DNA from: Natrialbaceae archaeon AArc-T1-2
GTDB lineage: Archaea > Halobacteriota > Halobacteria > Halobacteriales > Natrialbaceae
Assembly: GCF_030273315.1 (NCBI RefSeq)
Contig: NZ_CP127174.1
Span: 1,798,001-1,862,000, forward strand
DNA length: 64,000 bases
Direction of reading: 5' to 3'
Shown: positions 12,925 through 36,706 of the stretch, piece after piece
How the letters are laid out: each line of letters opens with the position of its first letter
How positions within the stretch are numbered: position 1 is the first letter of the stretch
Made by a program: the position numbers and the translations under genes
The notes under the pieces: generated by a model
The model's input: the letters and a program-made list of their open reading frames with translations, nothing else
The model's database searches: none
Told to the model about the DNA's origin: nothing

Positions 12925-13947
12925 ATGAACGGAAAACCAAGTCGTCGAAAACTGTTATCTGGTATTGGTACTGCGGCCGGCATTGCAGTTGCAGGCTGTC
13001 TCGGGGATGAGGGAGAGTTCCCGAACGACCCGATTACGATGGTTGTCCCCTTCGGGGAAGGGGGTGGCGTGGACCGCAGCACGCGCGAGCTGCAGGAAGC
13101 GCTCGAAGACGAACTCGGCGTTAACCTCCGGTTCGAGTATCATCCGGGTGCTGGCACGCAGATCGGACAGCAAGCCGCCCTCGAGGAAGACGACGCGTAT
13201 ACGATCGGGGTCGCGTCGTTACCGGCGTTCAACTTCACGATGATTACCGGGGATGCGCCTTACGACCTCGACGATTTCGCGTGGGTCGGCAACTTGCTCC
13301 AGGACCCTGGACTGATCCGCGTGCACGAGGACGACGACCGGTTCGATGACATAAACGATCTCATCGACTATGCGGTCGACAATCCCGGGGAGCTGTCCGT
13401 CAGTACCTCGGGCCCGTACAACCAGAACGTGCTGGGGCTTGCTCACCTCGAGGAGATCACGGGTGCCGAGTTCAACGTCGTCCCGTACGACGGCGGTGGC
13501 GACGCGAGAAACGCTCTCGTTACGCAGGAGGTCGATTTCGTCCACGCCAACGTGTTCAACAGCCTCGGAACCGCAGAGGACACGAGAGTGCTGGCAGTCC
13601 ACGCGGAGGAAAACGAGTGGGCGGACATCACGGACGACGCACCGACGTTCAGCGACGCCCTCGGGTTCGATCAGGAGGAGCTGCGGCCGAACTGGCCCGA
13701 AGTGCGATACTCGTGGTACATCTCCCAGGACGCAGCCGACGCTCACCCCGACCGGCTGGAGTTCCTCCAGGATGCGTTCGAGACGGCGGTGAACTCGGAG
13801 ACGTACGAAGAGACGCTCGCAGACCTCTCACCACCACAGGAGACGAAACGGGACTACATGTCGCCTGAGGAGACGGAGGAGGCGAACAGGGAGAAACACG
13901 AGACGATGGAGCAGTTCGTTGACCTGATGGGCGAGATGACGGAGTAA
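12925..13947 (+). CDS. tctC: TTT transporter substrate-binding lipoprotein (TctC-like), module A
   Basis: 340 residues. A Tat signal (PSRRKLLSG) leads into a lipobox with Cys25 (VAGC), so the mature protein is a lipid-anchored binding protein on the outer face of the membrane. The body shows the TctC/BugT features: PITMVVPFGEGGGVD near the start, YHPGAGTQIG, and the acidic C-terminal helix. These proteins bind carboxylates and deliver them to TctA/TctB. It is the first gene of an operon with tctB (2 nt after) and tctA. A paralogue is at 27012. The ligand is not known. Confidence 0.93.
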   Translation: MNGKPSRRKLLSGIGTAAGIAVAGCLGDEGEFPNDPITMVVPFGEGGGVDRSTRELQEALEDELGVNLRFEYHPGAGTQIGQQAALEEDDAYTIGVASLPAFNFTMITGDAPYDLDDFAWVGNLLQDPGLIRVHEDDDRFDDINDLIDYAVDNPGELSVSTSGPYNQNVLGLAHLEEITGAEFNVVPYDGGGDARNALVTQEVDFVHANVFNSLGTAEDTRVLAVHAEENEWADITDDAPTFSDALGFDQEELRPNWPEVRYSWYISQDAADAHPDRLEFLQDAFETAVNSETYEETLADLSPPQETKRDYMSPEETEEANREKHETMEQFVDLMGEMTE

Positions 13948-13949
13948 GC

Positions 13950-14498
13950 ATGTCCAGTCTCGAGAACGAAGAACCACTGAACGGGGGTGACGAACGGACA
14001 GAGGACCGGTGCGAATCGATCGACGATTCGTTTTTTTTGGCGCTAGTAAAGCCGTTAGTGTTCCCGACGCTCGGGCTCGTGTTTGCGCTTCTTTATCTTC
14101 ACTCGACGTACGGACGAATCGACCTATCCAACCTGACGTATCCATACGTTATCATCGGATCGCTGCTTGCTTTACTCGCCTCGGTGTACGTGAGTGAGAT
14201 CCGATCAGTCGTTCAGAAGAAAGACCGGTACGAACTCGACACGAAAGAGGCGTTGTCGGATTTGATCGACGAGTGGAAGATGTCGATCGTCGTCTGTGTC
14301 ATCGCCGTCGTATATGTCGGTGTCATCGACACCGTCGGCTTCTTCACGAGCTCGGCACTGGCGATGATCGCTCTCATGTCTCTCAGTGACGTCGATTACA
14401 AGGTGCTGGTCGCGGTTACCGTCTTCACGATCGGGATGATTTACGTCCTGTTTATCGGCGTCCTGGACGTCCGGCCACCGGAGGGGTTCCTCATATGA
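13950..14498 (+). CDS. tctB: TTT transporter small membrane subunit (TctB-like), module A
   Basis: 182 residues with four predicted membrane segments, the usual fold for TctB, starting two bases after the tctC stop. The sequence is poorly conserved, as is normal for this subunit; the call rests on size, topology and position between tctC and tctA. A long hydrophilic N-terminus of about 28 residues precedes the first helix. Confidence 0.85.
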   Translation: MSSLENEEPLNGGDERTEDRCESIDDSFFLALVKPLVFPTLGLVFALLYLHSTYGRIDLSNLTYPYVIIGSLLALLASVYVSEIRSVVQKKDRYELDTKEALSDLIDEWKMSIVVCVIAVVYVGVIDTVGFFTSSALAMIALMSLSDVDYKVLVAVTVFTIGMIYVLFIGVLDVRPPEGFLI

Positions 14499-14556
14499 GC
14501 GCCCGAGGAACCGCCGGTGTAACAACTGACATGTACGAAAACCCATTCGGTGACAC

Positions 14557-16053
14557 ATGATCGGAAACCTCGCTGCAGGAATCGAGATCCTGTTAACGCC
14601 AACGAACATCCTCCTGATCATGTTTGCAGTCATTGTCGGGATCGTAGCTGGGGCTATCCCCGGTTTCACAGGGACGAACACGGTCGCTATCGTTCTCCCG
14701 TTTACCCTCGCGATGACGCCGGAAACCGCCATCGTCTTTATGGCTGCGATATACGTCGGTGCGAACTACGGTGGCGCGATCCCCGCCGCCTTGATTAACA
14801 CACCGGGTACGGCTGGCGCAACCGCTACCGTCCTGGACGCCTACCCGATGAGCAAAAAGGGCAAGGCTGGACAGGCGATCGGGATCTCCATACTGGCCAG
14901 TGGAATCGGCGGAATCATCTCGGCGATCGTCATCGTGGCCTTACTGAACCCGCTCGGCTCTGTCGCGCTTATGTTCGGTCAGCCCGAGTACTTCGCGCTG
15001 GCGCTTTTCGGCATCATCGCGTTGGCTTCTGTCCTCGGCGAAAACGTCAGGAAAGGCCTCATTTCGGGACTTTTGGGTCTGTTGATCGCGGCCGTGACCC
15101 TCGACCCGATCACCGGACAGAGTCGACTCGATTTCGGCTTCCCGGAACTCGTTTCTGACGTGCCGTTCGTTCCGATCATCGTCGGCCTGTTCGCCATCTC
15201 GGAGTTGATGTATCTAATCAAGAAGCGACAAATTAGCGACGCCGACTTCGATATCAGCTCGATGTCGGAAGTCAAAAAAGGAGCAAAGCAGGTCCTCGCC
15301 CGACCGTTCCAGACCCTTCGAGCGATCTCTATCGGAACACTAATCGGCGCGATTCCCGGTGCCGGGACGTCCGTCGCGAACTTCATCAGCTGGGGCGAGG
15401 CGAAACGGGCGTCGGACAAGCCGGAGGAGTTCGGCGATGGATCTCCCGAAGGCGTGATCGCCTCCGAGGGGTCGAACAACGCCGTTACCTCGAGTTCGTT
15501 GCTCCCAACGCTCGTGCTCGGTATTCCAGGCAGTGGTACGACGGCAGTTATGCTGGGCGCGCTGTTGCTTCACGGGATCCAGCCCGGACCGAACCTCATG
15601 GCCGAGTTCGGTGCCGAGGCAACGGCGATCATGCTGTCGCTGCTGATAGCCAACCTCGTCCTTATCGCGTTCGCGTTCGCCATTTCGAAGTATATCGTTC
15701 GAGTAGTGCTCTTGCCGACGGAGTGGCTGGTGCCGGTCATCCTCGTCTTGACCGCGATCGGGATATTCTCGCTGAACAACTCCCTCTTCGAGGTGCGATT
15801 CATGATCCTGTTCGGCATCCTCGGGTTCATCATGCGGGAGTACGACTACTCGCTGATTCCGATGGTACTCGGCGTCATCCTGGGCCCGCTAGCCGAGGGG
15901 GCGTTCCGCCGAACGCTGGAGTTGGGTAACGGAGATGTTACCCTCTTCTTCATCAACAGTCCGATCACCGTCATCCTCTGGGTACTCATCGTCGCCGTGT
16001 TCTTCTCGGACCACATCTCGCGGTTCTTCAAAAGCCTCCTCTCACGGGTGTAA
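14557..16053 (+). CDS. tctA: TTT transporter large membrane subunit (TctA-like), module A
   Basis: 498 residues, about 12 membrane segments. Family signatures are clear: GAIPGFTGTNTVAIVLPFT in the first half and the repeated GAIPGAGTSVANFISW and EGSNNAVTSSSLLPTLVLGIPGSGTTA in the second half. This is the channel subunit of a secondary, cation-driven tripartite tricarboxylate transporter. It ends the tctCBA operon; a 14-bp palindrome follows the stop directly. The presence of a second, separate TTT system at 24719-28031 indicates two different carboxylate substrates. Confidence 0.94.
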   Translation: MIGNLAAGIEILLTPTNILLIMFAVIVGIVAGAIPGFTGTNTVAIVLPFTLAMTPETAIVFMAAIYVGANYGGAIPAALINTPGTAGATATVLDAYPMSKKGKAGQAIGISILASGIGGIISAIVIVALLNPLGSVALMFGQPEYFALALFGIIALASVLGENVRKGLISGLLGLLIAAVTLDPITGQSRLDFGFPELVSDVPFVPIIVGLFAISELMYLIKKRQISDADFDISSMSEVKKGAKQVLARPFQTLRAISIGTLIGAIPGAGTSVANFISWGEAKRASDKPEEFGDGSPEGVIASEGSNNAVTSSSLLPTLVLGIPGSGTTAVMLGALLLHGIQPGPNLMAEFGAEATAIMLSLLIANLVLIAFAFAISKYIVRVVLLPTEWLVPVILVLTAIGIFSLNNSLFEVRFMILFGILGFIMREYDYSLIPMVLGVILGPLAEGAFRRTLELGNGDVTLFFINSPITVILWVLIVAVFFSDHISRFFKSLLSRV

Positions 16054-19316: not shown

Positions 19317-19672
19317 ACAATGTAAAATAAGATGGTAGATAATAAAACTTTCCACTGAAGTTGAAATACTGGCTATAGTATGGATTGATCTATTATCATA
19401 TAATGGAACGGTTGTCAATAGTGACTGCTTCTCTACCGTTCGGCGAAGTACCGATCCGTCCGATCGGTGTGCCAGACGATGCTGCAGGTAGAACGATACG
19501 ACGTAAACGCGTGCCTCCGGACTATAGACGCTCTGACGCGACGCGTCCGAGACCGATCACGACCGTACACGTCGTCGGAACGAGCTCGGTAGTCATCCGC
19601 TGGCCGAGAGATCGTCGAATGCTGATTTCGACATTCTTATAACGATGTAAAAGGCAGTTGTATAACGTAATT
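19317..19672 (+). other. Divergent intergenic region, 356 bp
   Basis: It separates two divergently transcribed symporter units and holds AT-rich promoter-like stretches at both ends (19341-19348 for the minus-strand gene; CTTATAAC near 19636 for the plus-strand gene). No gene or repeat was noticed in the middle. Confidence 0.45.
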
Positions 19673-19882
19673 ATGGAACGTGAACGACGCTCGATCGAAC
19701 CCGATCGGATGCTCTCGGTCCTGTTCGTCGCATTGTTTCTGGGCATGGTAGCGACGGTGTGGGTACCCGTCGAGCCGATCGTTCTTGGCGTACCGTTCTG
19801 GGCCGGGAGCGCACTCGCGCTCATGATCGTCTCCGTGATCGCCGCCGGCTTTGCAGGCTGGTACTGCGGGTGGCCGAACTGA
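19673..19882 (+). CDS. Small membrane protein, symporter partner (DUF3311-like)
   Basis: 69 residues with two hydrophobic helices (about 13-35 and 40-62) and a C-terminal GWYCGWPN. Small two-helix proteins of the DUF3311 kind are commonly encoded directly upstream of an SSS symporter, as here, where the symporter ATG follows after four bases. It is likely a subunit or stabiliser of that carrier. The start was set at ATG 19673, because an earlier ATG in frame adds only five residues. Confidence 0.7.
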   Translation: MERERRSIEPDRMLSVLFVALFLGMVATVWVPVEPIVLGVPFWAGSALALMIVSVIAAGFAGWYCGWPN

Positions 19883-19886
19883 AATC

Positions 19887-21329
19887 ATGACGACCGTTGC
19901 ACTCACGATCATCGCGCTGTACGTCGTCGTTACGATCGCAATCGGCTGGTACGGCTACGTTCGGACGGGACACACCCCCGCCGAGTACTTCTTGGCCGGT
20001 GGCACCCTCGGGGTCGTCGTGTTCCCGCTGACGATGTTCGCGACGCTGATGAGCGCGTTCATCTTTCTCGGCAGCGCTGGCTGGGGATACGAACACGGGA
20101 TGGGCTGGTTCGCGTTGCTCGGCGTCGAAGTGATCGCCGGCATTCCGCTGGCGCTTATCGGTCTCAAGGTCTGGCGCGTCGGGAAGCGATACGGCGTCAT
20201 CACGCCGACCGAACTCGTCGGTCGGATCTACGACAGCGACGCGACCAAACTGGTCGTACTCGTCGTCCAGTTCGTCTGGGCCGTTCCGTACCTGGCGATC
20301 CAGGCGATGGGTGGCGGAATCCTGTTCGAAACGATTACCGACGGTGCGATGTCGTTCACACAGGGTGCAGTACTGATCTCCGTCGTCACGGCCGTCTACC
20401 TCACTCTGGGCGGCCTGCGAAGCGTCGCGTGGTCGGACGTGTTACAGGGGCTGTCGATGGTCGTCTTGCTGATCGCGGCGCTCGTGTGGCTCTACCCATC
20501 GCTCGAGCCCACGGCGGCAGCGCAGACGCTCGCTACGGAGACGGGACATCTCGAACCCGCGGGCGATCGAGGGTTCTTCACACCCGGGATCTGGCTGTCG
20601 TTCCTGCTGATGAACACGATGGCGATCATCGCCTATCCGCAGATGTTCCAGCGGTTTCTCGCGGCCGAAGACGAGCGCGCGTTTCGATCGCTGCTGGTCT
20701 GGTGGCCGATCATGGTCGTCGTTGCCGTGCTCGTTCCCGTGTTGCTCGGCGTCTGGGGGGCAGCGGCGATGCCCGGTCTCGAGGATCCGGATACGATCGT
20801 CCCTGCGCTGCTCGCCGAACACGCTCCACCGGTCGTGTTTGGAATCGTCATGGGTGGTGCGGTAGCTGCGATGATGAGCACCGCCGACAGTCTCGTGTTG
20901 ACGCTCTCGTCGGTGGTCTCGCGCGACCTGTACCGGGACCACGTGAACCCGGACGCGAGTCCGGGCCGCGAGACGTGGGTCGGGCGCGTCACTGCCGTCG
21001 TCTTGCTTGCTGGCGGGCTCGTCCTCGCACTGGCTCGACAGGAGACGATCATCGAACTCGCGGTGTATTTCATTCAGGGCAACGCGCTCTTGTTGCCGGT
21101 GTTGATCGCACCGCTTTACTGGAGGCGCGTCACAGCTACTGGTGCCCTCGCTTCGGTCGCGCTCGGGCAGGGCTTTTTCGTCGCCGCGACGTTCGGACCG
21201 GTCCCGGCGGGACCGTTTATGCCGTTCGTCCCCGCCCTGGTGCTTGCCTGTGCCGGACTGCTACTCGGCTCGCTTCTCTCTCCCGAACCGGAACCGAACG
21301 AAACCGCTACGCTGTCGTTCGACCCGTAA
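19887..21329 (+). CDS. Sodium:solute symporter (SSS family), upstream of LuxE/LuxC-like genes
   Basis: About 480 residues and 12-13 membrane helices. The SSS fold is shown by YFLAGGTLGVVVFPLTMFATL near the start, NTMAIIAYPQMFQRFLAA in the middle and GAVAAMMSTADSLVLTLSS in helix 8. It starts four bases after the small membrane protein and ends seven bases before the adenylating enzyme, so all four genes to 23876 look like one operon. It probably imports the acid substrate of the following two enzymes. It is distinct in sequence from the symporter at 17802. Confidence 0.9.
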   Translation: MTTVALTIIALYVVVTIAIGWYGYVRTGHTPAEYFLAGGTLGVVVFPLTMFATLMSAFIFLGSAGWGYEHGMGWFALLGVEVIAGIPLALIGLKVWRVGKRYGVITPTELVGRIYDSDATKLVVLVVQFVWAVPYLAIQAMGGGILFETITDGAMSFTQGAVLISVVTAVYLTLGGLRSVAWSDVLQGLSMVVLLIAALVWLYPSLEPTAAAQTLATETGHLEPAGDRGFFTPGIWLSFLLMNTMAIIAYPQMFQRFLAAEDERAFRSLLVWWPIMVVVAVLVPVLLGVWGAAAMPGLEDPDTIVPALLAEHAPPVVFGIVMGGAVAAMMSTADSLVLTLSSVVSRDLYRDHVNPDASPGRETWVGRVTAVVLLAGGLVLALARQETIIELAVYFIQGNALLLPVLIAPLYWRRVTATGALASVALGQGFFVAATFGPVPAGPFMPFVPALVLACAGLLLGSLLSPEPEPNETATLSFDP

Positions 21330-21336
21330 CGTACCC

Positions 21337-22425
21337 ATGTCGATTCCCACTACACTCACGAACCCGTACGTACCGACGGACGAAACGCTCGACGAATGGA
21401 CGACCACGGTGATCGACACCCACTTCGATCCCGAGACGGGGACGCCGTACTGGCTCGAGTGGCAATCCGACGCCGGTATCGACGTCCGCTCCGCCGTCGG
21501 CGGATTCGACGATCTGCGGACCGTCTTCGAGCCGTTCGACGAGGACGTCCTGCGGACGCTCCCGGTCGAGGAGTTTTCCCCGAACGGCCTCTCGGGCGAC
21601 CGCCGAGTCTACGAGACCGGCGGTACCACCGGCGAGCCCAAGCGCATTCTCATGTGTGAGTACTGGCGACAGCAGGCCCGCTGGACGGCGAACGTACTCG
21701 AGGAGTGGACGTTTCCGCGTGGCAACGTCCTCGGGCTAGCTCCGCCCGGCGGTGCCAACAACGCGGGGACGTTCGTCCAGCACCTGGCTCACGAGTGGGG
21801 TCGGCTCCCGTTTCACGTGACCATGGATCCCCGGTGGGTGAAACGGCTCTCGAGACGACGCGACGCGAGCGAGTTCGACGCCTACCTCGAACACCTCTGT
21901 GACCAGGCCGAACGGATCCTCACCAGTCAGGACGTTCGAGTGCTATTTACGACCGCGCGGCTGCTCGAGCGACCGCGCGTGCGCGACCTCGTCGCCGAGT
22001 CGTCGATCGAGGGGATCGTCCACGGCGGCACGGCACTCGACCGCGACACCCATCGCATCTTCCGGGACGAGTGGTACAGCGACGTCACCCTCGTCGGCGA
22101 GTATGGGAATACGCTCGTGGGCGTCGCCCCCGAGGTGCCGCCCTCGTTCGGATCGCCAACCGATCGCGACTATCACCTCGATTACGTCCCCTGTTACCCC
22201 TACTTCGTCACCGAGATCGTCGACTCGGACGGCGAGCCCGTCGCCTACGGCGAGCGTGGAACGGTCCGGCCGACGGTGCTCACCGAGGAGTGTTTCCTCC
22301 CGCTGTTACCCGAGCGGGATACGGCAGCACGGATCCGCGGTGAGGGCGACTTCGGGTGGGACTGGGTCCGAACCCCGACGACCGGCGAACACGCCGCTGA
22401 CAGCGCCGTGGAGGGGGTCTACTAA
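21337..22425 (+). CDS. LuxE/ANL-type acyl-adenylating enzyme
   Basis: 362 residues, about the size of LuxE acyl-protein synthetase and shorter than typical acyl-CoA ligases. The AMP-binding P-loop is VYETGGTTGEPKRI (residues about 90-103), and later GEYGNTLVGVAPE corresponds to the A5-type substrate-site motif. The C-terminal ligase subdomain is abbreviated. It most likely activates a carboxylic acid with ATP and hands the acyl group to the next gene product. The start ATG is seven bases after the symporter stop. The ANL superfamily call is good; the LuxE assignment rests on size and the LuxC-like neighbour. Confidence 0.72.
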   Translation: MSIPTTLTNPYVPTDETLDEWTTTVIDTHFDPETGTPYWLEWQSDAGIDVRSAVGGFDDLRTVFEPFDEDVLRTLPVEEFSPNGLSGDRRVYETGGTTGEPKRILMCEYWRQQARWTANVLEEWTFPRGNVLGLAPPGGANNAGTFVQHLAHEWGRLPFHVTMDPRWVKRLSRRRDASEFDAYLEHLCDQAERILTSQDVRVLFTTARLLERPRVRDLVAESSIEGIVHGGTALDRDTHRIFRDEWYSDVTLVGEYGNTLVGVAPEVPPSFGSPTDRDYHLDYVPCYPYFVTEIVDSDGEPVAYGERGTVRPTVLTEECFLPLLPERDTAARIRGEGDFGWDWVRTPTTGEHAADSAVEGVY

Positions 22426-22448
22426 GATGCAACCGAGGTGACCTACGC

Positions 22449-23876
22449 ATGTTACCACTGCTCTCGCTCGAGGAACGTGAGACGGCCCGAAGCGACCCCA
22501 TCGACGGAATCGACGGCACGGTCTGTGACGTCGCCCGAACACCTCGCGTTCGCGTACACGATGCGCTCACGACGGCCCGTGAGGACGGTTTCGAGACGTT
22601 ACAGGAGATCGCAGTCCGTGACCTCTTAGAGCGTCTCGCGACCGCGGGCCAGCTCTTCTTCGGACGGGGCGTTCCCGCACACAGCGGCGAGCTCCCGCCG
22701 TTCGAACGCTACCAGCGGCGAGTCGTCGCAGCGACCGGTATGCCGGCCGGGTGGGTCCGGACGGCCGCTCACTGGATCGCGTTCGGTCTCCGACACCTAT
22801 CTGAATCGTTACGGGCCCAGTCTCCGACCGGCGGGCTCGAGGTCTACGACGATCCGGGCTACGTTCGCGAGACGAACGTCGGGCTGGCGTTTGCACCCCG
22901 CGTCCGCGCGCTCGGTGCGACGATGCCGGCGAACGATCCCACGGTGTACGTCTGGCCCGTCGTCGCGCTGGCGATGAAGATTCCTCTGGTGTTACGTCCG
23001 TCCGACCGCGATCCGTTCACCGCGATTCGACTCGGACGCGCCCTCCGTCGCGCCGGGATTCCGGCGTCGGCGGTTCACGTACTGCCCGGCGATCGGTCGA
23101 TCGGCGAGACCGTCTGTCGGGACGCCGACCACGCGATGGCCTTCGGCGGAGACGCTGTCGTCGATCGGTTCCGTAGCGATCCGACCGTTTCGACGTACGG
23201 CCCCGGCGAGAGCGTCGCCGTCCTGGCACGCGATCCGACCGACCGGGAACTCGAGACGCTGGCTCGAGGCGTCGCCCGCTCCGGCGGTCGGGCGTGTTTT
23301 TGTCTGACGCGTCTCGTCGCGACGGGCGAGTGTGACGCCGACGCGCTGGCGACCCGACTCGCCGACCGGATCGTCCGCGTCGACGCCACGCGGTGTGGGT
23401 CGCTCTACGACGAACGGACCGGCGTGCCTGGCTTTTCCCCACGGCGTGCAGAACAGATCGACGCCACGGTGGGCGAGCTGACGGGAACCGACGTTACTGC
23501 CGACCGTCGAGGCGGAGGTCGAGACTGCGCTTGCGACGCCGGCCGGGGGTCCGATTCTGATTCCCGCCTCCTCGAACGCGACGGCGTCGCCCGCCTGCTG
23601 CCGACCGTTCTTCGGACCGACGAACTCGTTCCGGAGCTTCCGTTTCAGTTCGCCGGCGTGACCCGGCGCGACGTCGACGAGTTGCCGGACTGTCTCGACG
23701 GCGCGTATCTCGGCGTCGTCATCGGCGACGACGACCTCGAGCGGACGTTCGTTCGGTCGCCCGAGATACGGAAGGTATACGGCGGTCGGTACCCCGCTGC
23801 CGTCGACCTTCGGGAGACGCACGAAACGTACCTCGGATCGGAACTCTACGAGACGACGACGTACGATCCGGGGTGA
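22449..23876 (+). CDS. LuxC-like acyl reductase (aldehyde dehydrogenase fold), with a local double frameshift
   Basis: 475 residues. The ALDH-like fold is indicated by VYVWPVVALAMKIPLVLRPS and ILP-type GIPASAVHVLPGD segments, and by the catalytic-cysteine region SGGRACFCLTR (Cys283 or Cys285), similar to the QACFS region of LuxC fatty-acid reductases. It should reduce an activated acyl group to an aldehyde with NAD(P)H. Residues about 348-379 read poorly, whereas the next frame gives a plausible segment with ATPAGGPILIPASS; this points to one inserted and one missing base near 23500 and 23583, either real or sequencing errors. The preceding gene supplies the activated acyl group. Confidence 0.7.
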   Translation: MLPLLSLEERETARSDPIDGIDGTVCDVARTPRVRVHDALTTAREDGFETLQEIAVRDLLERLATAGQLFFGRGVPAHSGELPPFERYQRRVVAATGMPAGWVRTAAHWIAFGLRHLSESLRAQSPTGGLEVYDDPGYVRETNVGLAFAPRVRALGATMPANDPTVYVWPVVALAMKIPLVLRPSDRDPFTAIRLGRALRRAGIPASAVHVLPGDRSIGETVCRDADHAMAFGGDAVVDRFRSDPTVSTYGPGESVAVLARDPTDRELETLARGVARSGGRACFCLTRLVATGECDADALATRLADRIVRVDATRCGSLYDERTGVPGFSPRRAEQIDATVGELTGTDVTADRRGGGRDCACDAGRGSDSDSRLLERDGVARLLPTVLRTDELVPELPFQFAGVTRRDVDELPDCLDGAYLGVVIGDDDLERTFVRSPEIRKVYGGRYPAAVDLRETHETYLGSELYETTTYDPG

Positions 23877-23887: not shown

Positions 23888-24628
23888 TCAGACCGACATT
23901 CCGCCGTCGACGTGGAGCACTTCGCCCGTGATGAACTCGTGACTCGCTACGAACCGAACGGCATCGGCGACTTCCTCTGGCGTCGCCTCGTAGCGATCGA
24001 GCAGGGTGTCGACGGTGTGATGCCCGCGGAACCGCCGGTCCTCCAGTGACTCGGTGATCACGTCGTTCATCGGCGTATCGACGGGACCGGGCGCGACGGC
24101 GTTGACGCGCACGCCGTCCGGTCCGACTTCACGTGCGAGCGCTCGCGTAAAACCGAGCAGCCCCGCCTTCGACGTCGCGTACGTGGTGTCGACGGATCCG
24201 ATCGTCGCCGCCACGCTCGCGACGTTTACCACGTTGCCGTCCGTTTTCCGCAGGTAGTCGATCGCTTCCGCCGTCACGTTGACGGCTCCCTCGACGTTGA
24301 CCGCGAGCGTGCGCTCGAGCGACGTTGGCGCGTCATCGATCGAACCGGGGTCGACGACGCCAGCGGCGTTTACGACCGTACAGAGCGGTCCAAGCTCCAG
24401 TGCCGCATCGACGAGCCGGGACGCGTCCGTTCGGTCGGAGACGTCTCCCTGCACCGCTGTCGCTTTCTGTCCGCGTGCTTCGACGGCTGTTGCGCTCTCG
24501 AGTGCGGCCGATTCGTCACGGAAGTATCCAACGGCGACGTTCAATCCGTCGTCGGCCAGTGCTTCGGCAGTTGCGCGACCGATGGCCCCTGAACCGCCGG
24601 TCACGAGCGCCGTCGCGTCGTCGGTCAT
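23888..24628 (-). CDS. Short-chain dehydrogenase/reductase
   Basis: 246 residues, classical SDR. NAD(P)-binding TGGSGAIGRAT near residue 10, NAAG at about 88, catalytic Ser in NVASVAAT and the Tyr-x3-Lys pair in TTYATSK, and the C-terminal LHVDGG. It looks like a 3-oxoacyl-ACP reductase type enzyme. It converges with the LuxC-like gene, 11 nt apart, and lies downstream of the second TTT transporter on the same strand with a gap of 90 nt, so its pathway cannot be settled. Substrate unknown. Confidence 0.9.
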   Translation of the reverse strand: MTDDATALVTGGSGAIGRATAEALADDGLNVAVGYFRDESAALESATAVEARGQKATAVQGDVSDRTDASRLVDAALELGPLCTVVNAAGVVDPGSIDDAPTSLERTLAVNVEGAVNVTAEAIDYLRKTDGNVVNVASVAATIGSVDTTYATSKAGLLGFTRALAREVGPDGVRVNAVAPGPVDTPMNDVITESLEDRRFRGHHTVDTLLDRYEATPEEVADAVRFVASHEFITGEVLHVDGGMSV

Positions 24629-24718: not shown

Positions 24719-26236
24719 TCAGTTTTTGATGATGGTGACGATGATCGAGAGCGCGATGATGGCGAGCAATCCGATGGAGATCGTACTCTCGAAGAAGAAC
24801 GCCATCGGATCGCCACGGTGGAGCAACCAGCCCGTGACGAATCCATCTTCGGCGATGCCGCCGAGAATGATCCCGAGAACCGGACTGACGAGAGGGTAAT
24901 CGTACTTGACGAAGAGCACTCCGAGGATGCCGAACACCCAGACGATCCAGAGATCGAAGAGGGAGTACCGGACGGCGAACCCGCCGATCACGGCCAGCAC
25001 GCACACGGCCGGAATGATGTACTCTGCGGGGATGTACGCGAGCTTTCCGAAGTACCGCGATCCGGGGATGCCGTAGACGAAGATCAACGCGTTACCGATA
25101 AACAGCGAGAAGATGATCGCGTACACGATCACGGCGGACCGGTCGAACAGACCCGGGCCGGGGTTGAGTCCGTGGAGGGCGATCGCGCCGAGAAGCGCAG
25201 CCGTCGAACCGCTGCCGGGAATACCGAGGGTAAGCGTCGGGATCAAGGCACCACCCTGCGTCGCGTTGTTGCTCGAGTCGGCCGCGATGATGCCCTCGAT
25301 AATTCCGGTTCCGAACTTATCCGAGAGTTCCTCTTTCGACCAGCGCTGGGCTTCGTTGTAGCTGACGAAGTTTGCGACGTCGGCACCGGCGCCGGGGAGG
25401 GATCCGATGAACGCACCGATCGACATGCCACGAACGACGTCGACCGGCCGCTTTCTGACGGCTCGGAACGCATCACGGACCTGCCCTTTTCCGCCCTTTA
25501 CGTCTGCGGTATCCTGGGCGACCGTGCCGCGGTACGCGAGTTGGATCATCTCGGCGAGCACGAACAGTCCGATGAGGGCGACGATGAAGTTGACGCCGTC
25601 TTGCAGGATGGTGAATCCGAACGTGCTACGTGGCTGTGCCAGCTGTGGGTCGTTACCGATGGTCGCGACCAGCAAGCCGAACGCTCCACCGAGTAGGGAC
25701 TTCGAGAGCGATGCGCCCTTGGCTGCGGGAATGATCGTGAGCGCGAACACCGCCAGGAGGAACATCTGGGGTGGGCCGAACTGCAGGGCGAAGTCGGCGA
25801 TCTGTGGCCCGATCAACAGCAACAACACGGCGGCGAAAATTCCGGCGATCGACGAGACGATAGCCGACACTGCCAGTGCGTAAATTGCCCGCCCGTCCCG
25901 GGTCAGTTCGTACCCGTCCCAACACGTCACGACGGACCCGGGCGCGCCGGGCGTATTGATCAAAATTGCAGGAATCGAGCCGCCGTACACCGCCCCACCG
26001 TACGCCGAAACGAGGAAGATCAGCGCCGGCGTGGCGTCAAACGGTATCGTAACGGGCGTAAGCAAAATGATCGTCATCGTCGCAGAGAACCCTGGAATGG
26101 CACCGAACAGTATTCCGAGCGCGACTCCGATGAAAATGGCAGCAATTATCACCGGGTCGCTTAACAGCAAAAGAGCGTCGCCGATCGCCGCGGGGGCAAA
26201 CACATCAGCACTTGCACCTGTAATTGAGTTTCTCAT
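24719..26236 (-). CDS. tctA: TTT transporter large membrane subunit (TctA-like), module B
   Basis: 505 residues and about 12 membrane helices, with the TctA signatures GAIPGFSATMTIILLTPVT, GSLPGAGADVANFVSY and SNNATQGGALIPTLTLGIPGSG. It follows tctB with a 12-nt gap and ends the transporter operon of the putative sulfonate locus. TTT systems carry carboxylates and, in bacteria, the sulfolactate carrier SlcHFG belongs to this family, which is a precedent for a sulfonated carboxylate. It is about as diverged from the module A protein as expected for a different substrate. Confidence 0.94.
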   Translation of the reverse strand: MRNSITGASADVFAPAAIGDALLLLSDPVIIAAIFIGVALGILFGAIPGFSATMTIILLTPVTIPFDATPALIFLVSAYGGAVYGGSIPAILINTPGAPGSVVTCWDGYELTRDGRAIYALAVSAIVSSIAGIFAAVLLLLIGPQIADFALQFGPPQMFLLAVFALTIIPAAKGASLSKSLLGGAFGLLVATIGNDPQLAQPRSTFGFTILQDGVNFIVALIGLFVLAEMIQLAYRGTVAQDTADVKGGKGQVRDAFRAVRKRPVDVVRGMSIGAFIGSLPGAGADVANFVSYNEAQRWSKEELSDKFGTGIIEGIIAADSSNNATQGGALIPTLTLGIPGSGSTAALLGAIALHGLNPGPGLFDRSAVIVYAIIFSLFIGNALIFVYGIPGSRYFGKLAYIPAEYIIPAVCVLAVIGGFAVRYSLFDLWIVWVFGILGVLFVKYDYPLVSPVLGIILGGIAEDGFVTGWLLHRGDPMAFFFESTISIGLLAIIALSIIVTIIKN

Positions 26237-26248
26237 CGTGTCACCTCG

Positions 26249-26983
26249 TTAGGGGAGTGGAAGGTTTAGCCAGTTGATGAACACACCCCAGACCAGAATC
26301 GTAAATCCGACTGAGTACGCGATGAGTATTGTCGGCCGCCGTTCGCCGAACATGTAAAGCGACGCCGCGAGGAAACCGACCGACGACACGGTGAACGGGA
26401 CTTCGACGTAGAGGAGCCCGACGTACACAAGCGAGAGAGCCGTGATTCCGGCGGCGGTTCGAACGGTAAAGCTTCCGTCCGCTTTCTGATCGGTCTCTGC
26501 GGTACGTTCGGTCTCGTCGAACTGCTCTACTACGTCCGTGCGTCCACGAGAGTGATCTCGCTGTTCTGTCGCCCCGTCGACGTTGCTCGTTTCCACGTAG
26601 CTGCCGTTCCCGTCCGGTGACATCTCCTCGGCTGTTTCTGACGTGTTCGAACCCCCGTCCGTCGACCCGCTCGGACCGTCCTCTGGCGTTTCGCCCTGTG
26701 TAGTACCCGGCTCCGCTTCTTCCGACGTCGGTGTTATAGAAATGACATGAATGAGAAGGGTAACGACGGCGAGAAGTATAGTCGCGTACAACAACGGATT
26801 GGCGTACAACATCGATTGCTCCGGCAGCCCCCGCGTGTCCCAGTAGTACAACGCACAGAACACGAGTGCTATCAGCGGAAACAGTAATTCGCCCGTATCG
26901 ATACGTACCTGCCGTTCCCCGAGCCGGAGATCGACTGTTGGCGGCTCCAAACTTTTTGCTTGCATTTTAGGTGCTCTACTCAA
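26249..26983 (-). CDS. tctB: TTT transporter small membrane subunit (TctB-like) with a long acidic insert
   Basis: 244 residues, longer than the usual 150-180. Two hydrophobic helices at about 34-85 are followed by a hydrophilic, low-complexity stretch (about residues 88-165, rich in Ser, Glu, Asp and Gly), and then helices from about 172 to 240. The extra length is thus a loop between helices 2 and 3. An ATG six codons downstream is an alternative start. The gene lies between tctC and tctA in the expected order. Confidence 0.85.
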   Translation of the reverse strand: MSRAPKMQAKSLEPPTVDLRLGERQVRIDTGELLFPLIALVFCALYYWDTRGLPEQSMLYANPLLYATILLAVVTLLIHVISITPTSEEAEPGTTQGETPEDGPSGSTDGGSNTSETAEEMSPDGNGSYVETSNVDGATEQRDHSRGRTDVVEQFDETERTAETDQKADGSFTVRTAAGITALSLVYVGLLYVEVPFTVSSVGFLAASLYMFGERRPTILIAYSVGFTILVWGVFINWLNLPLP

Positions 26984-27011
26984 AGGAATGTTATATATGT
27001 TTTTTCAGTCT

Positions 27012-28031
27012 CTAGAATTCTTCGAACAGGGGCTGGTACTGTTCCATGAATTCCGAGTACGCTTCCACCTCTTCCTGCGTTTCTTCTGGACCCTGGTAGT
27101 TGACGATCAGGTCAAGGTTCCCTTGCTCTTCGGCAGCTTCCTGGAACTCGTCGCTTTCCATGGCCTCCTCGTAGGAGTCGACGAGCATCTCGAACCGATC
27201 GGGGTACTCCTCTTGCAGTCCGCCCGGGGCGACCATGAGCTTCCACTGTCCGAACCCTTCTTCGACGAGCGGCAGTTCGTCGCCGAGCCCGAGCTCTCCG
27301 AACGTCGGCACGTCCCAGAGGTCGGTCGGCTCGTCGTTGTGCGTTCCAAGCGCGGTCACTTCGCCTTCGTGGTCCGGGTTGAACGACCACGGCTGGTTGA
27401 CGGCTGCATCGACGTCCCCGGCCAGAATCGCTTCACGTACTGGCGACCCACCCTCGAGGTTGACGATATTGAAGTCGACGTCGTACGTGTCCTGCACCAG
27501 AAGGGCAGAGAGTGCCGTGTTCCCGATCGCTGCCGTCGTCCCGACGTTCACTTCGTTGTCTTCGGCGTAGTCGATGAACTCGGCCATGTCGTCGTACGGC
27601 GAGTCCTCGGGAGCGAACCACGTGGTCGGGTCCAGGTGGTGAGTCCCGATGTAATCGAAGTCCGTGTGGTCGTACTCCGCGTCCTGGAACAGCCAGGTCG
27701 CCTGCATGTGTGGCAGGTTCCACATGGCGATGGTATAGCCGTCCGGTTCGGAGCCATACAACTCCTCGCCGCCGACCTGCGTACCGGCACCGGGTTGATT
27801 CCGCACCGCGAAGTCCGCGTCCATTGCCTCTTGCCATGCCGGCGTCGTCGCTCGCATAGACCGGTCGGTCCCACCACCCTGGGACCACGGCACGATTACG
27901 TCGATCGCCTGGCTCGGGTAGTCACCGTTACCGTTGCCGTTGTCACCCATACAGCCAGCGAGGCCCGCAACTGTTACTGCTCCCCCATACTTCAGGAATT
28001 TCCGCCGCGATTTATCAACGTTCTTTGTCAT
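27012..28031 (-). CDS. tctC: TTT transporter substrate-binding lipoprotein (TctC-like), module B
   Basis: 339 residues. Tat signal (KSRRKFLKYG) and lipobox with Cys27 (LAGC) predict a lipid-anchored extracytoplasmic binding protein. TctC features: IDVIVPWSQGGGTD, NQPGAGTQVG and the DYIGTHHLDPTTWF region. It is the first gene of the minus-strand tctCBA operon in the Xsc locus, and the most likely determinant of substrate choice for that pathway. AT-rich sequence upstream (28032-28150) could hold its promoter. Paralogue of the protein at 12925. Confidence 0.93.
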   Translation of the reverse strand: MTKNVDKSRRKFLKYGGAVTVAGLAGCMGDNGNGNGDYPSQAIDVIVPWSQGGGTDRSMRATTPAWQEAMDADFAVRNQPGAGTQVGGEELYGSEPDGYTIAMWNLPHMQATWLFQDAEYDHTDFDYIGTHHLDPTTWFAPEDSPYDDMAEFIDYAEDNEVNVGTTAAIGNTALSALLVQDTYDVDFNIVNLEGGSPVREAILAGDVDAAVNQPWSFNPDHEGEVTALGTHNDEPTDLWDVPTFGELGLGDELPLVEEGFGQWKLMVAPGGLQEEYPDRFEMLVDSYEEAMESDEFQEAAEEQGNLDLIVNYQGPEETQEEVEAYSEFMEQYQPLFEEF

Positions 28032-30253: not shown

Positions 30254-31444
30254 TCAGATGACACCGTCTTCTTCGAGTTCTGCGATCTCTTCGGGCGTTA
30301 GCCCGAGCCGTTCTTCGTACACGTCGTAGTTGTCACCGCCTTTGGTCGGAGACGGCGTGATCTCCGGCAGCTCCGCCTCCGACAGGCGGATCGGCGTTCC
30401 AGGTACCCGGATCGGCTCGTCGAACTCCGGATGCTCGATCTCGTTTACCATCTCCCGGACCTCGAGGTGGCGGTCGTGGATGACCTCTTCGATCGTCTGC
30501 ACGGACCCACACGGAACGCCCGCGTTGAGCAGCGTCTCGACGATTTCCTCGCGCGTCTTATCGCGCGTCCACTCCTCTATCGCCTCGTCGATTTCCTCCA
30601 TGTGTTCGATTCGCTGGACGTTCGTCTCGAGTCGTGGATCGTCTTTGAGATCCTCGCGGCCGATGGCGTCGGCCAGTTTCACCCAGTGGTTGTCCGACGC
30701 ACAGAGGATCGTGACGTACCCATCGCTGGCTTCGTATGCATTGTACGGTGCTTTGGCGAGACCGCTGTGTCGGCTCCCCGTTCGGGGCGGGACGTCGTCG
30801 TCTTTGTAGTACGCGCCAAGCTGTGAGAGCAACGCCGGGTAGATCGCGTCTTGCATTCCTACTTCCACGAACTGTCCTTCGCCCGTTCGCTCCCGATGGA
30901 ACAGTGCGGAGATGACGCCGGTGGCGAGATGAATTCCTCCAAGGAAGTCACCGGGAGCGATGCCGGTTTTGACCGGCGGCCCATCGGAGAACCCGGTCAC
31001 GTCCATGATTCCACCTTCGGCCTGGACGATCAGGTCCATCGCCAGCCGGTTGCTCTTCGGCCCCGACTCGCCGAACCCGCTCGAGTGAGCGTAAATGAGC
31101 TCGGGGTTGATCTCCGAAAGCGTTTCGTATCCGAGGCCGAACGACTCCATCGTCCCGACCGCGTAGTTTTCGACGAGAACGTCGGCGTCGCTGATCAGGT
31201 CCGTGAACAGTTCTTTCCCGCGCTCGGATTTCAGATTCAGCGTGATCCCGTCTTTGTTCGAGTTCAACATGGCGAACTCGGGTGGCTCTCCCTCGTCGAC
31301 TCGCGACCGGAGCGGTTCGCCGAACGGTGGTTCGACCTTCGTTACGTCCGCTCCGAGGTACGAGAGGATGAGTGAACAGTACGCCCCGTTGTAAATTTGA
31401 CCGAGGTCTATAACCTCGACACCATCGAGTGGCTGCTGGGCCAT
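30254..31444 (-). CDS. Class III CoA-transferase (CaiB/BaiF family)
   Basis: 396 residues from the ATG at 31444. Moves CoA between two carboxylic acids through an aspartyl-CoA intermediate. The catalytic aspartate is probably Asp137 in LAMDLIVQAEGG; other family marks are VIDLGQIYNGAYCS at the start, LGADVTKVEPP, NLKSERGKEL and VGMQDA. A TATA element at 31462-31476 predicts a leaderless message. In this locus it could form sulfoacetyl-CoA from sulfoacetate, replacing the SauT ligase of bacterial sulfoacetate pathways; this is inference. The family is certain, the substrate is not. Confidence 0.9.
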   Translation of the reverse strand: MAQQPLDGVEVIDLGQIYNGAYCSLILSYLGADVTKVEPPFGEPLRSRVDEGEPPEFAMLNSNKDGITLNLKSERGKELFTDLISDADVLVENYAVGTMESFGLGYETLSEINPELIYAHSSGFGESGPKSNRLAMDLIVQAEGGIMDVTGFSDGPPVKTGIAPGDFLGGIHLATGVISALFHRERTGEGQFVEVGMQDAIYPALLSQLGAYYKDDDVPPRTGSRHSGLAKAPYNAYEASDGYVTILCASDNHWVKLADAIGREDLKDDPRLETNVQRIEHMEEIDEAIEEWTRDKTREEIVETLLNAGVPCGSVQTIEEVIHDRHLEVREMVNEIEHPEFDEPIRVPGTPIRLSEAELPEITPSPTKGGDNYDVYEERLGLTPEEIAELEEDGVI

Positions 31445-31461
31445 GTGCCCATAATACACGT

Positions 31462-31476
31462 AATATAATATAAAAT
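31462..31476 (-). promoter_or_regulatory. Probable TATA box of the CoA-transferase gene
   Basis: An A/T-only stretch (AATATAATATAAAAT) is centred about 26 nt upstream of the ATG at 31444, the spacing expected when transcription starts at or next to the start codon. Confidence 0.5.
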
Positions 31477-31602
31477 TTGGGGCGGAAAACGGTAATCGGA
31501 TACGCCCCTATTCGTGTCGAGATCCGACGCCGCGTGGACGGTCCGACGTCGTCCGGACCTCCCGCGAGGACCGTCCGACGATGGAGAGCTATCAGTCGCC
31601 GT

Positions 31603-32670
31603 TCATACAGGATCGGACAGCTCGTTCTGTTCGACGTTCGATTCCCGCCGGCTCAACAGCCCACCGTTCGTGATCGGCCCTAACGTCTGTCGGCCGTGAG
31701 ACGCTCTGACGGCCGAAACGGCGGTGATATCGACGATGTCCTCGACGCTTGCGCCGCGTGAGAGGTCGCTCACCGACCGCCCGTATCCCTGAAGGATCGG
31801 TCCGAGCGCTCGCGCACCGGCCAGTCGCTCGGTGAGTTTGTATGCGATGTTTCCCGTCTCCAGGTTCGGGAAGATGAAGACGTTCGCGTCGCCTTCGATC
31901 GGACACGCGCCGTCTACCTTTCGGTTGGCGACGTCCGGATCGAGCGCGACGTCTGCCTGTATCTCGCCCGCGACGGCTGCATCGTCGAGGCGCTCTCGTA
32001 CCTGGTCGGTCGTTTCCGCGACCTTCTCGGCTCGCGGGTGGGAAGCACTACCCTGCGTCGAGAACGAGAGCATGGCGATTTTCGGCGACCACTCGAGCAG
32101 TGTTCGTGCGGTTTCGGCTGTCGTCACGGCGATGTCGGCGAGTCTGTCGGCGGACGGCTCGATGTTGACGCCACAGTCGGCGTACAGGAGCGCACCGTTC
32201 TCGCCGATCGACGGATCGTCGAACCCCATCACGAAGAAACTCGAGGCGGTGTCCACGTCGGGATCGAGTCCGACGACCCCGTTAGCGGTCGCGACGACGT
32301 CGGCGGTCGAGTTGACCGCACCCGCGACCATCCCGTCGACCTCGCCGAGTCGTACCAACAGCGCGCCGAACACGAGTGGATCGTCCAGGAGGGTGGCTGC
32401 GACTGCTCGTTCGACGCCGCGAAGATCGGCGTAGTGAGCCGCGTAGTCGTCGCGTCGGCTTCCGTCCGGAACCGAGACGACGTCGATCCCGGCTTCAGCG
32501 TCGAGTTCGTGGTCGGTCGCGTCGCTCGCGACGACGACGGGCTGTGCGATCTCCTCGGTAGCGATCCGCCGTGCGGCGTCGACGACGCGTTCGTCGTCAC
32601 CTTCGGGGAGGAGGATCCGCGTCGACGTCTCTCGAGCGCGCTGGCGAAGTGCTGTGATTGTATCGGTCAT
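31603..32670 (-). CDS. pta: Phosphate acetyltransferase, next to xsc
   Basis: 355 residues from the ATG at 32670; converts acetyl phosphate and CoA to acetyl-CoA and phosphate. Typical short-form Pta, without the N-terminal DRTGG domain: start with RILLPEGDDERVVDAA, GMVAGAVNSTADV, FADCG-like LLYADCGVN, MLSFSTQGSA and the C-terminal NFPNL-type FIFPNLETGNIAYKL. It begins 84 nt after xsc on the same strand, the arrangement known from bacterial sulfonate degraders, where Pta removes the acetyl phosphate made by Xsc. Pta is uncommon in archaea, so this link strengthens the Xsc call. Confidence 0.92.
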   Translation of the reverse strand: MTDTITALRQRARETSTRILLPEGDDERVVDAARRIATEEIAQPVVVASDATDHELDAEAGIDVVSVPDGSRRDDYAAHYADLRGVERAVAATLLDDPLVFGALLVRLGEVDGMVAGAVNSTADVVATANGVVGLDPDVDTASSFFVMGFDDPSIGENGALLYADCGVNIEPSADRLADIAVTTAETARTLLEWSPKIAMLSFSTQGSASHPRAEKVAETTDQVRERLDDAAVAGEIQADVALDPDVANRKVDGACPIEGDANVFIFPNLETGNIAYKLTERLAGARALGPILQGYGRSVSDLSRGASVEDIVDITAVSAVRASHGRQTLGPITNGGLLSRRESNVEQNELSDPV

Positions 32671-32754
32671 CGGCCTTCTGGGCGAACGTCGCTGGAACGG
32701 TACTGCAACCGCCCCCACGACGTAGGAGTGGTGGTGTTCCACTCCGTCGATCGC

Positions 32755-34542
32755 TTACTCCTCGTAGTTCGGGTCACCGGGCTGGCGGTACTTCTCGAGG
32801 ATGCGCTCGGGATCGTCGAGCGCGTCGCGGCGGAACGGTTCGAGCAGTTCGGTGCCGTCAGTGCGGATGTCCAGCACGGACGGTTTGTCCGTCTCGAGCA
32901 TCTCTTCGACGGCGCCTGTGATCTCGTCGGGATCTTCGACGCGGATGCCGTGGGCGCCCATGTCGCGGGCGATTTCCGCGAAGTCCGGGTTCTCCGGCAG
33001 GTCCGTTCCCTGGAAGCGGTCCTGGTAGAACCAGTACTGGTTCTGTTTTTCGGCGCCCCACTGCATGTTGTTGAAGACGACCGCGTTCACGTTGATCCCT
33101 TCGCGAACGCACATCATCACTTCGTTCATCGACTGCATTCCCCAGGCACCGTCGCCGACGAACGCAACCGACTCGTCTTCCGGCCGGGCGACCTTCGCGC
33201 CGATGGCGGCCCCGTAGGCGAACCCACAGTTGCCGAACGTCCCTGCGGCCAGACAGTTGCCGCCTTCCTCGAACTCGAGGTAGGCGTTGGCCATCGAACA
33301 GGTGTTGCCGATGTCCGTTGCGATCATCGTCCCCTGTGGCAGTGCCTCCGTCACGTCGTAGAGTGCACGCCGCGGGTGGATCGGCGTCTGATCCACTTGG
33401 GACATCTCCTTCAGCTCTTCCTTCCAGTCGGCGTAGTTCTGCTGAACCTCTTCGACGCGACTGTCGGGCGCACCGTAGGAGTCGTCGAGCTTGTCGACCA
33501 GCCCTTCGACGGTTCGGGCGGCGTCACCGACCAGACCGAGTTCGACCTGGGTGGTGCGGCCGATCTGGGAGGGATCGATGTCGATCTGGATGATGTCCGC
33601 GTCGTGTGGGAACCAATCGAGGCCGTACTGTGGGAGCAGGCCGAAGCCGCTTAGACGGCTGCCGACGGCGATGACGGCGTCGGCGTCGTTGAGTTCTTCC
33701 ATCGCGGCTTTCGAACCACCGTAGCCGAGTGCGCCGACCGCCAGCGGGTGGCTGATCGGGAACGAGTCGTTGTGCAGGTAGGAGTTCGCCACTGGCGCAT
33801 TCAGCAACTCCGCCAGGTCCGCGACCTCGTCCATCGCGTCGGAGTAGATGACCCCGAGGCCGGCGATGATCGCCGGATTCTCGGCGTCCTCGAGGAGGTC
33901 GACGGCTTTGCTGATTTCGGCGTCGTCTGCGCCGCCGACTTTGGTCTGGCGGTACTGGTGTGGCTGGAGAACGTCGACCTCGACTTCGCCGTAGAGGTTG
34001 TCGCGAGGGAAGTCGATCTGTGCGGGGCCCTTCTGGTTGAGCGATTCGCGGTGGGCCGTGCGGACGTACTCGGCGATGCGACCTTTGTCTTCGAGGCGCT
34101 GTTGCCAGTCGACGCAGTCCTCGAAGATGGACATCTGGTCGGCTTCCTGGAACGTGTCGGTGCCGATGCCGCCGGTGGTCGCTGTCGGGGACAGCATGAT
34201 GACCGGGGAGTGGTTGAGCTGGGCCGCCTTGATACCAGTGACCATGTTGGTGACGCCGGGGCCGTTCTGGGCGACACAGACGCCGGGTTTCTCACCCTTG
34301 AGTGCCTGCGCGTAGCCGTCGGCCATGTGCGCGGCGTTTTGTTCGTGCCGAACGGCGAGATAGTTGATACCCGCCTTGGGCATGATATCGAGGAAGTCCA
34401 TGAACGCCGAGCCGACGATCCCGAACATCACCTCGGTATCTTCGGCGGCGAACTGCTCGAGCAACGCCTCGCTCGGCGTCATCCGCTCATTCTCGTGAAT
34501 CGGCTCACTCTCGATAGATTCGCGTGATTGTTGTTCCGACAT
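32755..34542 (-). CDS. xsc: Sulfoacetaldehyde acetyltransferase
   Basis: 595 residues. Thiamine-diphosphate enzyme that turns sulfoacetaldehyde and phosphate into acetyl phosphate and sulfite. Features: N-terminal FGIVGSAFMDFLDI and KAGI, the cofactor-activating Glu67 in RHEQNAAHMADGY, AQNGPGVTNMVTGIKAA, FQEADQMSIF, and the ThDP motif GDGAWG (463-468) to VVFNN (488-492), followed by MQWGAEKQNQ. The last segment and the GSA/QNGPG/FQE combination are characteristic of Xsc and differ from acetolactate synthase. The length is normal. A 16-bp palindrome overlaps the start codon and a TATA element lies near 34575. pta follows on the same strand. Confidence 0.93.
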   Translation of the reverse strand: MSEQQSRESIESEPIHENERMTPSEALLEQFAAEDTEVMFGIVGSAFMDFLDIMPKAGINYLAVRHEQNAAHMADGYAQALKGEKPGVCVAQNGPGVTNMVTGIKAAQLNHSPVIMLSPTATTGGIGTDTFQEADQMSIFEDCVDWQQRLEDKGRIAEYVRTAHRESLNQKGPAQIDFPRDNLYGEVEVDVLQPHQYRQTKVGGADDAEISKAVDLLEDAENPAIIAGLGVIYSDAMDEVADLAELLNAPVANSYLHNDSFPISHPLAVGALGYGGSKAAMEELNDADAVIAVGSRLSGFGLLPQYGLDWFPHDADIIQIDIDPSQIGRTTQVELGLVGDAARTVEGLVDKLDDSYGAPDSRVEEVQQNYADWKEELKEMSQVDQTPIHPRRALYDVTEALPQGTMIATDIGNTCSMANAYLEFEEGGNCLAAGTFGNCGFAYGAAIGAKVARPEDESVAFVGDGAWGMQSMNEVMMCVREGINVNAVVFNNMQWGAEKQNQYWFYQDRFQGTDLPENPDFAEIARDMGAHGIRVEDPDEITGAVEEMLETDKPSVLDIRTDGTELLEPFRRDALDDPERILEKYRQPGDPNYEE

Positions 34543-34555
34543 ACCGTGTCGTATG
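34540..34555. promoter_or_regulatory. Palindrome over the xsc start codon, possible shared operator
   Basis: CATACCGTGTCGTATG has perfect CATAC/GTATG arms and includes the xsc start codon. It matches the element at 36678-36693 in 14 of 16 positions. A regulator bound here would block a leaderless transcript. Part of the match comes from the start codons themselves, so support is moderate. Confidence 0.45.
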
Positions 34556-34574
34556 CTGTGTTATCCTTCACCCA

Positions 34575-34584
34575 CTTATATCTT
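34575..34584 (-). promoter_or_regulatory. Probable TATA box of xsc
   Basis: The minus-strand sequence AAGATATAAG lies 33-42 nt upstream of the xsc ATG, consistent with a promoter giving a short leader that begins within or near the palindrome. Confidence 0.45.
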
Positions 34585-34790
34585 CTGCAAGGGGTGATTT
34601 CGGGGGAGGGCGTCCAGGTGTGGCCCCTTCTGTCTCTCGGATCCGACGTCGCAACCGGACCGATCTCGGTCGACCCCCACGTCACCGACCGACTCTCTCG
34701 ACATCTCGAGCGAGGTACGTCATCGCGTCAGTTGTCTCAACTACGCGTGTTGGAAGCTGAAACGAAGGTACACGAAGAAGAGGCGGCGTG

Positions 34791-35108
34791 TTATGAACTC
34801 GATCGGATGCGGATCGTCGGAGACTGTTTCCGGAGCCGGAGTTCGATCTCGTAGCCACAGTACGGAAAGACGATCCGGTCGGCGCCGGCCGCAGAATCCG
34901 GTGTGTGTAACCCGTTCAGCGAGTCGGGATCGATGACGTCGTACAGCGGTGGAAGCTCGACCGGCTCGCATCCCTCCAATTCGGCGACTGCCATGGTTAT
35001 CGCACACACTGGAGTGTCGTCGGAATCTTCCCGCCAGTTCGACTCGTATACGACGTTTGAATCGGTTGCCGATACGGGTTCGGGCTGTCCTCCCCTATCC
35101 TTACCCAT
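34791..35108 (-). CDS. HalOD1-domain protein
   Basis: 105 residues. It shows the haloarchaeal output-domain pattern: an N-terminal AVAELEG helix, PVELPPLYDVIDPDSLNGLH, and the strand VFPYCGYEIELR. HalOD1 occurs alone or at the C-terminus of signalling proteins in haloarchaea; no biochemical role is established. Its position between xsc and the acylating aldehyde dehydrogenase gene, all on the same strand, suggests it may take part in regulating this locus. The small intergenic spacers on either side (about 140 and 250 nt) allow a separate promoter. Confidence 0.75.
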   Translation of the reverse strand: MGKDRGGQPEPVSATDSNVVYESNWREDSDDTPVCAITMAVAELEGCEPVELPPLYDVIDPDSLNGLHTPDSAAGADRIVFPYCGYEIELRLRKQSPTIRIRSSS

Positions 35109-36693: not shown

Positions 36694-36706
36694 TCGAAGA
36701 TTGTGA

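Follow-up and report, generated by a model that had tools for sequence, protein, structure and literature searches.

Reducing carboxylic acids at the expense of ATP is costly and is known mostly from large CAR enzymes, from lux operons and from antibiotic clusters. In the lux system, LuxE and LuxC convert the acid to an acyl-AMP, transfer the acyl group to a cysteine of an ALDH-fold reductase and reduce it with NADPH to the aldehyde. A second arrangement, the two-part reductase pair considered here, is to our knowledge documented so far mainly in bacterial antibiotic pathways. EhpF and EhpG, encoded by an adjacent gene pair for the biosynthesis of D-alanylgriseoluteic acid, a phenazine of Pantoea agglomerans, were reportedly proposed by Bera in 2010 (a paper that PMC3175449 cites) to use GriC/GriD-like chemistry. 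In the latter system, which serves grixazone biosynthesis in Streptomyces griseus, 3-amino-4-hydroxybenzoate is adenylated by GriC, and GriD turns the resulting acyl-AMP into the aldehyde, according to a passage of PMC10179220 that cites Suzuki 2007.

The locus described here lies in a window of 64,000 nt (the whole stretch of DNA analyzed) from Natrialbaceae archaeon AArc-T1-2. Its nearest kin are the two-component, acyl-AMP-dependent carboxylate reductases, namely EhpF/EhpG by sequence and GriC/GriD by literature; the latter are likened to it by description, as an AMP-binding protein with an ALDH-like partner and the same chemistry as we propose below (PMC10179220, in the passage on this pair). 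The chemistry is thus not new as such, both pairs having already been described, although enzymes of this type have been little studied. The cassette differs from EhpF/EhpG in its archaeal host, in the lack of phenazine genes and in having an SSS symporter and a convergent SDR gene instead of an antibiotic cluster. Within the literature searched, neither the archaeal cassette, with its linked symporter and terminal SDR, nor its bacterial mirror appears to have been described, and to the extent of that search the remark in an earlier note on this DNA that no such set is known to have been described in archaea holds.

A five-gene unit in haloarchaea

The first four genes (Table 1) are tightly packed, as the earlier note had it: the sequence and its open reading frames give intergenic gaps of exactly 4, 7 and 23 nt. 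Another 11 nt separate the end of the reductase gene from the convergent SDR gene, which that note missed. The GC content and third-position GC of the cassette resemble those of neighboring genes.

Table 1. Genes of the cassette, with positions in the window
Feature	Positions	Strand	Remarks
Small two-helix membrane protein, 69 aa	19673-19882	+	Probable symporter accessory; same-place ORFs, shared motif
SSS-family sodium:solute symporter, 480 aa	19887-21329	+	PF00474; putative carboxylate importer
EhpF-type adenylating enzyme, 362 aa	21337-22425	+	ANL superfamily, N-terminal domain only; predicted acyl-AMP maker
EhpG-type ALDH-superfamily reductase, 475 aa	22449-23876	+	PF00171, ALDH fold; predicted to take acyl-AMP to aldehyde
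SDR-family dehydrogenase, putative aldehyde reductase	23888-24628	-	adh_short_C2; convergent fifth member

The search of other haloarchaea that the earlier note had proposed yielded seven further loci in which orthologues keep the gene order, and the four open reading frames do not stand in a row by chance. In total, eight complete loci were compared: that of the window, four from genomes of the Haloterrigena group, two from Halalkalicoccus and one from Halomarina, with one Halalkalicoccus copy (364-kb plasmid) and the Halomarina copy (1.2-Mb plasmid) being plasmid borne. The series of SSS symporter, EhpF-type enzyme, ALDH-fold reductase and convergent SDR is common to all eight, and the small membrane protein is present in seven, none being detected in the Halomarina locus. 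Identities to the window proteins, from the first gene to the fifth, are 42-46, 66-76, 65-77, 60-66 and 61-70%. We treat the five genes as a unit because the genes that flank them vary between haloarchaeal genera.

The individual members support this picture to different degrees. The symporter scores 149 bits against PF00474 (cut-off, 22.8); its best NCBIfam match is panF, at 191.6 bits and below that family's cut-off of 328. The small membrane protein, which matches no Pfam or NCBIfam family, has a counterpart reading frame at the same place in six other haloarchaeal loci, with the motif PVEPIV..P.W in common. The SDR (adh_short_C2, 168 bits) belongs to the cassette as its fifth gene: its place and orientation are constant in every complete haloarchaeal locus, and its closest paralogue in its own genome is only 42% identical.

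The cassette is rare and patchy, with a full orthologue in 8 of 392 haloarchaeal genomes, one further diverged case and two marginal partial matches. Haloarchaeal EhpF-type proteins form one clade, as do the ALDH-type proteins, and both are distinct from the bacterial clade and from the majority of proteins encoded in antibiotic clusters. The EhpF and SSS trees both join the window to Halalkalicoccus, which belongs to a different family, rather than to Haloterrigena, which is in the same family as the window (supports of 97/85 and 95/84); this suggests that the cassette has passed from one haloarchaeal family to another.

Two features near these genes may be recorded here. A short AT-rich element, TTGTATAA (window 19655-19675), is found 7 nt before the ATG of the first gene, and Haloterrigena carries the similar TTATACAA at an equal distance from its first gene; such an element is possibly part of an operator or promoter. 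Loci of the Haloterrigena group encode, about 2 kb beyond the SDR, an iron alcohol dehydrogenase (L012, 15262-16245, minus strand; likewise L055, L058 and L059) that is 29% identical to that of the bacterial clusters described below.

The adenylating enzyme and its reductase partner

When the adenylating enzyme was searched against PDB sequences with phmmer, only two matches were returned, and both were EhpF (3l2k and 3hgu; 143 bits, 8e-41). A profile of 28 homologues finds EhpF at 5e-70 and nothing else better than 5e-4, and the Pfam AMP-binding model gives 12.6 bits, below its cut-off. Identity to EhpF is about 30%. The residues G95, G96, T97 and G99, Y256, G257 and T259, and E326, R327 and D328 are conserved. 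The earlier note would have been troubled by a grouping with CoA ligases; instead, the AlphaFold2 model (pLDDT 80) has EhpF structures as its top Foldseek matches (3hgv, 3hgu and 3l2k; best 8e-28, TM 0.73-0.76), and PaaK-type ligases come second (3e-15, TM 0.65-0.68). Because the protein stops at an EGVY motif, the same end point as that of EhpF, the C-terminal ANL domain, which performs CoA transfer, is absent from both the sequence and the model. No paralogue of the gene was found in its own genome. Judged by sequence and predicted fold, the protein is best classed as EhpF-type and as neither LuxE nor a CoA ligase.

The reductase adopts an ALDH fold and matches Pfam Aldedh (PF00171) at 41 bits, above the cut-off. 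Across 23 homologues, the catalytic Cys283 and Asn162 are invariant, and the equivalent of the general base Glu268 is replaced by Tyr in haloarchaea and by His in bacteria; WLEAGGKS of KauB aligns with EVHGPGES, and haloarchaea have Tyr at that place. EhpG, which is 24% identical, shares the Cys and Asn and has likewise lost the Glu. We infer that this is the pattern expected of a non-hydrolyzing acyl-enzyme reductase. The earlier note had also named a grouping with ordinary aldehyde dehydrogenases or proline dehydrogenases as counting against its scheme, and this objection, like that of the CoA ligases, does not apply cleanly: the family profile gives EhpG of Pantoea 204 bits versus 87.5 bits for the best solved ordinary ALDH, and the protein is an EhpG-type partner rather than a hydrolytic aldehyde dehydrogenase. 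The active-site patterns of both enzymes are kept across the domains Archaea and Bacteria.

In the window, the reductase gene carries an in-frame insertion of about 15 residues (23500-23570), rich in Gly, Asp, Arg and Cys and absent from all homologues. A frameshift at residues ~355-370 was considered and ruled out by the alignment, the frame being intact on both sides of the insertion.

Could the pair nonetheless be a fatty acid reductase of the Lux type, in which a LuxE acyl-protein synthetase and LuxC make long-chain aldehydes? The lux operon works analogously, an ALDH-fold reductase receiving the acyl group of an acyl-AMP on a Cys, and LuxC (PF05893) does match the reductase weakly, at 18.5 bits against a cut-off of 21. 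Yet LuxC is matched, weakly, by only 2 of 23 members of the reductase family, Pfam LuxE matches none of the 28 members of the adenylating family at E 0.1, EhpF is far closer, and the locus holds neither LuxD nor a luciferase, as the earlier note itself observed. We consider this reading very improbable, and the Lux family labels that the note applied are wrong, the right ones being EhpF and EhpG.

Relatives beyond the haloarchaea

Scanning 84,980 genomes with the haloarchaeal alignment gave 31 loci, 29 of them outside the haloarchaea, in Planctomycetota, Acidobacteriota, Verrucomicrobiota, a few other groups and one Helarchaeota, at 32-38% identity. Of the 25 non-haloarchaeal loci with enough contig, 22 have an ALDH gene after the EhpF-type gene; among all 29, an SSS gene immediately precedes it in 14, and the ALDH is followed by an iron alcohol dehydrogenase in 14. 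A phylum-wide search produced 138 matches, nearly all of which covered the N-terminal region of proteins of 450-500 aa at about 40 bits and were taken as PaaK/F390-synthetase-like; only three were full length and strong.

The clusters of Planctomycetota and Acidobacteriota share with the cassette the series of symporter, adenylating enzyme and reductase followed by an alcohol dehydrogenase. They differ from it in their identity of only ~35%, in having an iron alcohol dehydrogenase and not an SDR, and in extra genes. In these clusters (e.g., L025, 4327-21040), the extra genes encode two PQQ-propeller proteins, a HemN-like radical SAM protein, a 195-aa protein, a halogenase-like FAD enzyme, a YbgC-like thioesterase and a PaaK-like ligase.

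Is the link between symporter and reductase inherited? In all 11 genomes searched, the linked bacterial symporter matches the haloarchaeal one better over the whole protein than any of its several paralogues does, in one case only narrowly. In the SSS tree, the linked copies of haloarchaea and bacteria fall within a wider clade (95/95) that also contains unlinked paralogues, and a single clade of all linked symporters has a p-AU of 0.075. Since this tree neither shows nor rejects such a clade, the pairing would be either old or have arisen twice.

EhpF-ALDH pairs also occur in antibiotic clusters that involve aryl acids, those of Pantoea and Burkholderia being of phenazine type and others belonging to Streptomyces, and identities of 33-35% are seen with streptomycete proteins that carry the annotation 'arylcarboxylate reductase'. 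Such clusters, along with the PaaK-like, radical SAM, halogenase-like and thioesterase genes of the bacterial symporter-linked loci, would fit a natural-product pathway in which the aldehyde becomes a building block of a pigment, an antibiotic or a glycosylated compound. That proposal seems quite unlikely for the haloarchaeal cassette, which has no biosynthetic genes beside it that are common to different genera and whose symporter points to the uptake of an acid.

The PKS-linked Streptomyces relatives of EhpF have no adjacent ALDH gene, and because some members stand beside PKS genes in this way, the family would appear to activate acids for other acceptors as well. This bears on a catabolic alternative that runs in reverse: the SDR would convert an alcohol to an aldehyde, the ALDH would oxidize it, and the adenylating enzyme would activate the resulting or imported acid for some other acceptor. 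EhpF relatives that act without an ALDH partner are in keeping with it, as are the surroundings in the window, with IclR regulators, TctA/TctC transporters, an amidohydrolase and a muconate-cycloisomerase-like enzyme. Against it, thioester hydrolysis needs a Glu that is missing from the ALDH partner, the adenylating enzyme lacks a CoA-transfer domain, and the two genes are near-constant neighbors, which independent oxidation would not need; we regard catabolism as unlikely. The TctA/TctC-type transporter genes (12925-16053 and 24719-28031) flank the cassette on either side.

A predicted route from acid to alcohol

From the observed gene content, order, conservation, folds and catalytic residues, we propose that the cassette is probably a self-contained system for taking up a carboxylic acid and reducing it, via an acyl-AMP, to the aldehyde and then the alcohol. 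In this model, the SSS symporter and its small partner would import the carboxylate with Na+. The EhpF-type enzyme is predicted to convert acid and ATP to an acyl-AMP and, because it lacks the C-terminal domain, to form no CoA ester. By analogy with GriC/GriD and EhpF/EhpG, Cys283 of the ALDH-fold partner would then take over the acyl group, and NAD(P)H would serve to reduce it to the aldehyde. Hydrolysis and oxidation to the free acid would be blocked because the general-base Glu has been lost. The SDR, from its position, is the candidate for the step from aldehyde to alcohol, a role that the iron alcohol dehydrogenase would take in the bacterial counterparts. As a predicted mechanism, the import-activate-reduce scheme of the earlier note thus agrees well with what was observed, in that a symporter, an ANL enzyme without a CoA-transfer domain and an ALDH fold with Cys and without Glu are all present.

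Which acid would be reduced? An aromatic acid is, we speculate, the likeliest candidate, since aryl acids are, as far as we know, what the described EhpF/GriC-type enzymes act on. This is the weakest step of the model: no gene in the haloarchaeal context confirms an aryl-acid substrate, and nothing in the flanks of the cassette accounts for use of the aldehyde or alcohol. The low identities to EhpF and EhpG, the PKS-linked relatives that stand without an ALDH gene, and an SSS tree that does not show one clade of linked symporters also weigh against the model.

One substrate is suggested by the window itself. On its minus strand, 30254-36884 encodes a CoA-transferase III, a phosphotransacetylase (Pta), Xsc, a HalOD1 protein and an acylating-ALDH-like protein, a set that could serve sulfoacetate degradation. 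The Xsc gene (32755-34542; 712 bits, over the NF005713 cut-off) is about 8 kb from the cassette, which might thus supply this pathway by reducing sulfoacetate to sulfoacetaldehyde. However, only the window genome comes near the Xsc level (671 bits), the seven other carriers reach at most 328 bits with acetolactate-synthase-like proteins, and the cassette flanks differ in other carrier genomes. With Xsc absent from the other carriers, we rejected the sulfonate pathway as a partner of the cassette and hold such a function to be extremely improbable.

Returning to the reductive model, it is possible, if short of probable, that haloarchaea, Planctomycetota and Acidobacteriota share an undescribed cross-domain module, in which an environmental, probably aromatic, acid would be taken up by a dedicated Na+ symporter and, outside antibiotic biosynthesis, reduced by a CoA-independent acyl-AMP reductase pair together with an alcohol dehydrogenase. 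If true, the EhpF/EhpG-type pair would serve for more than the production of antibiotics, and its compact, salt-adapted version of two proteins, which comes with an importer, could lead to small halophilic biocatalysts for aldehydes. The model also makes a testable claim for genes now annotated 'hypothetical protein.'

Another haloarchaeon has an EhpF-ALDH pair that has diverged to identities of 26% and 33% (locus L056, 9282-11789; genome G316, C7:48500-68000). It is surrounded by genes for an asparagine synthase, an AMP-binding enzyme, a lysine/ornithine N-monooxygenase, a PLP decarboxylase, an ABC transporter and a 118-aa peptide with FDSSYD repeats, a neighborhood that looks like an archaeal natural-product cluster.
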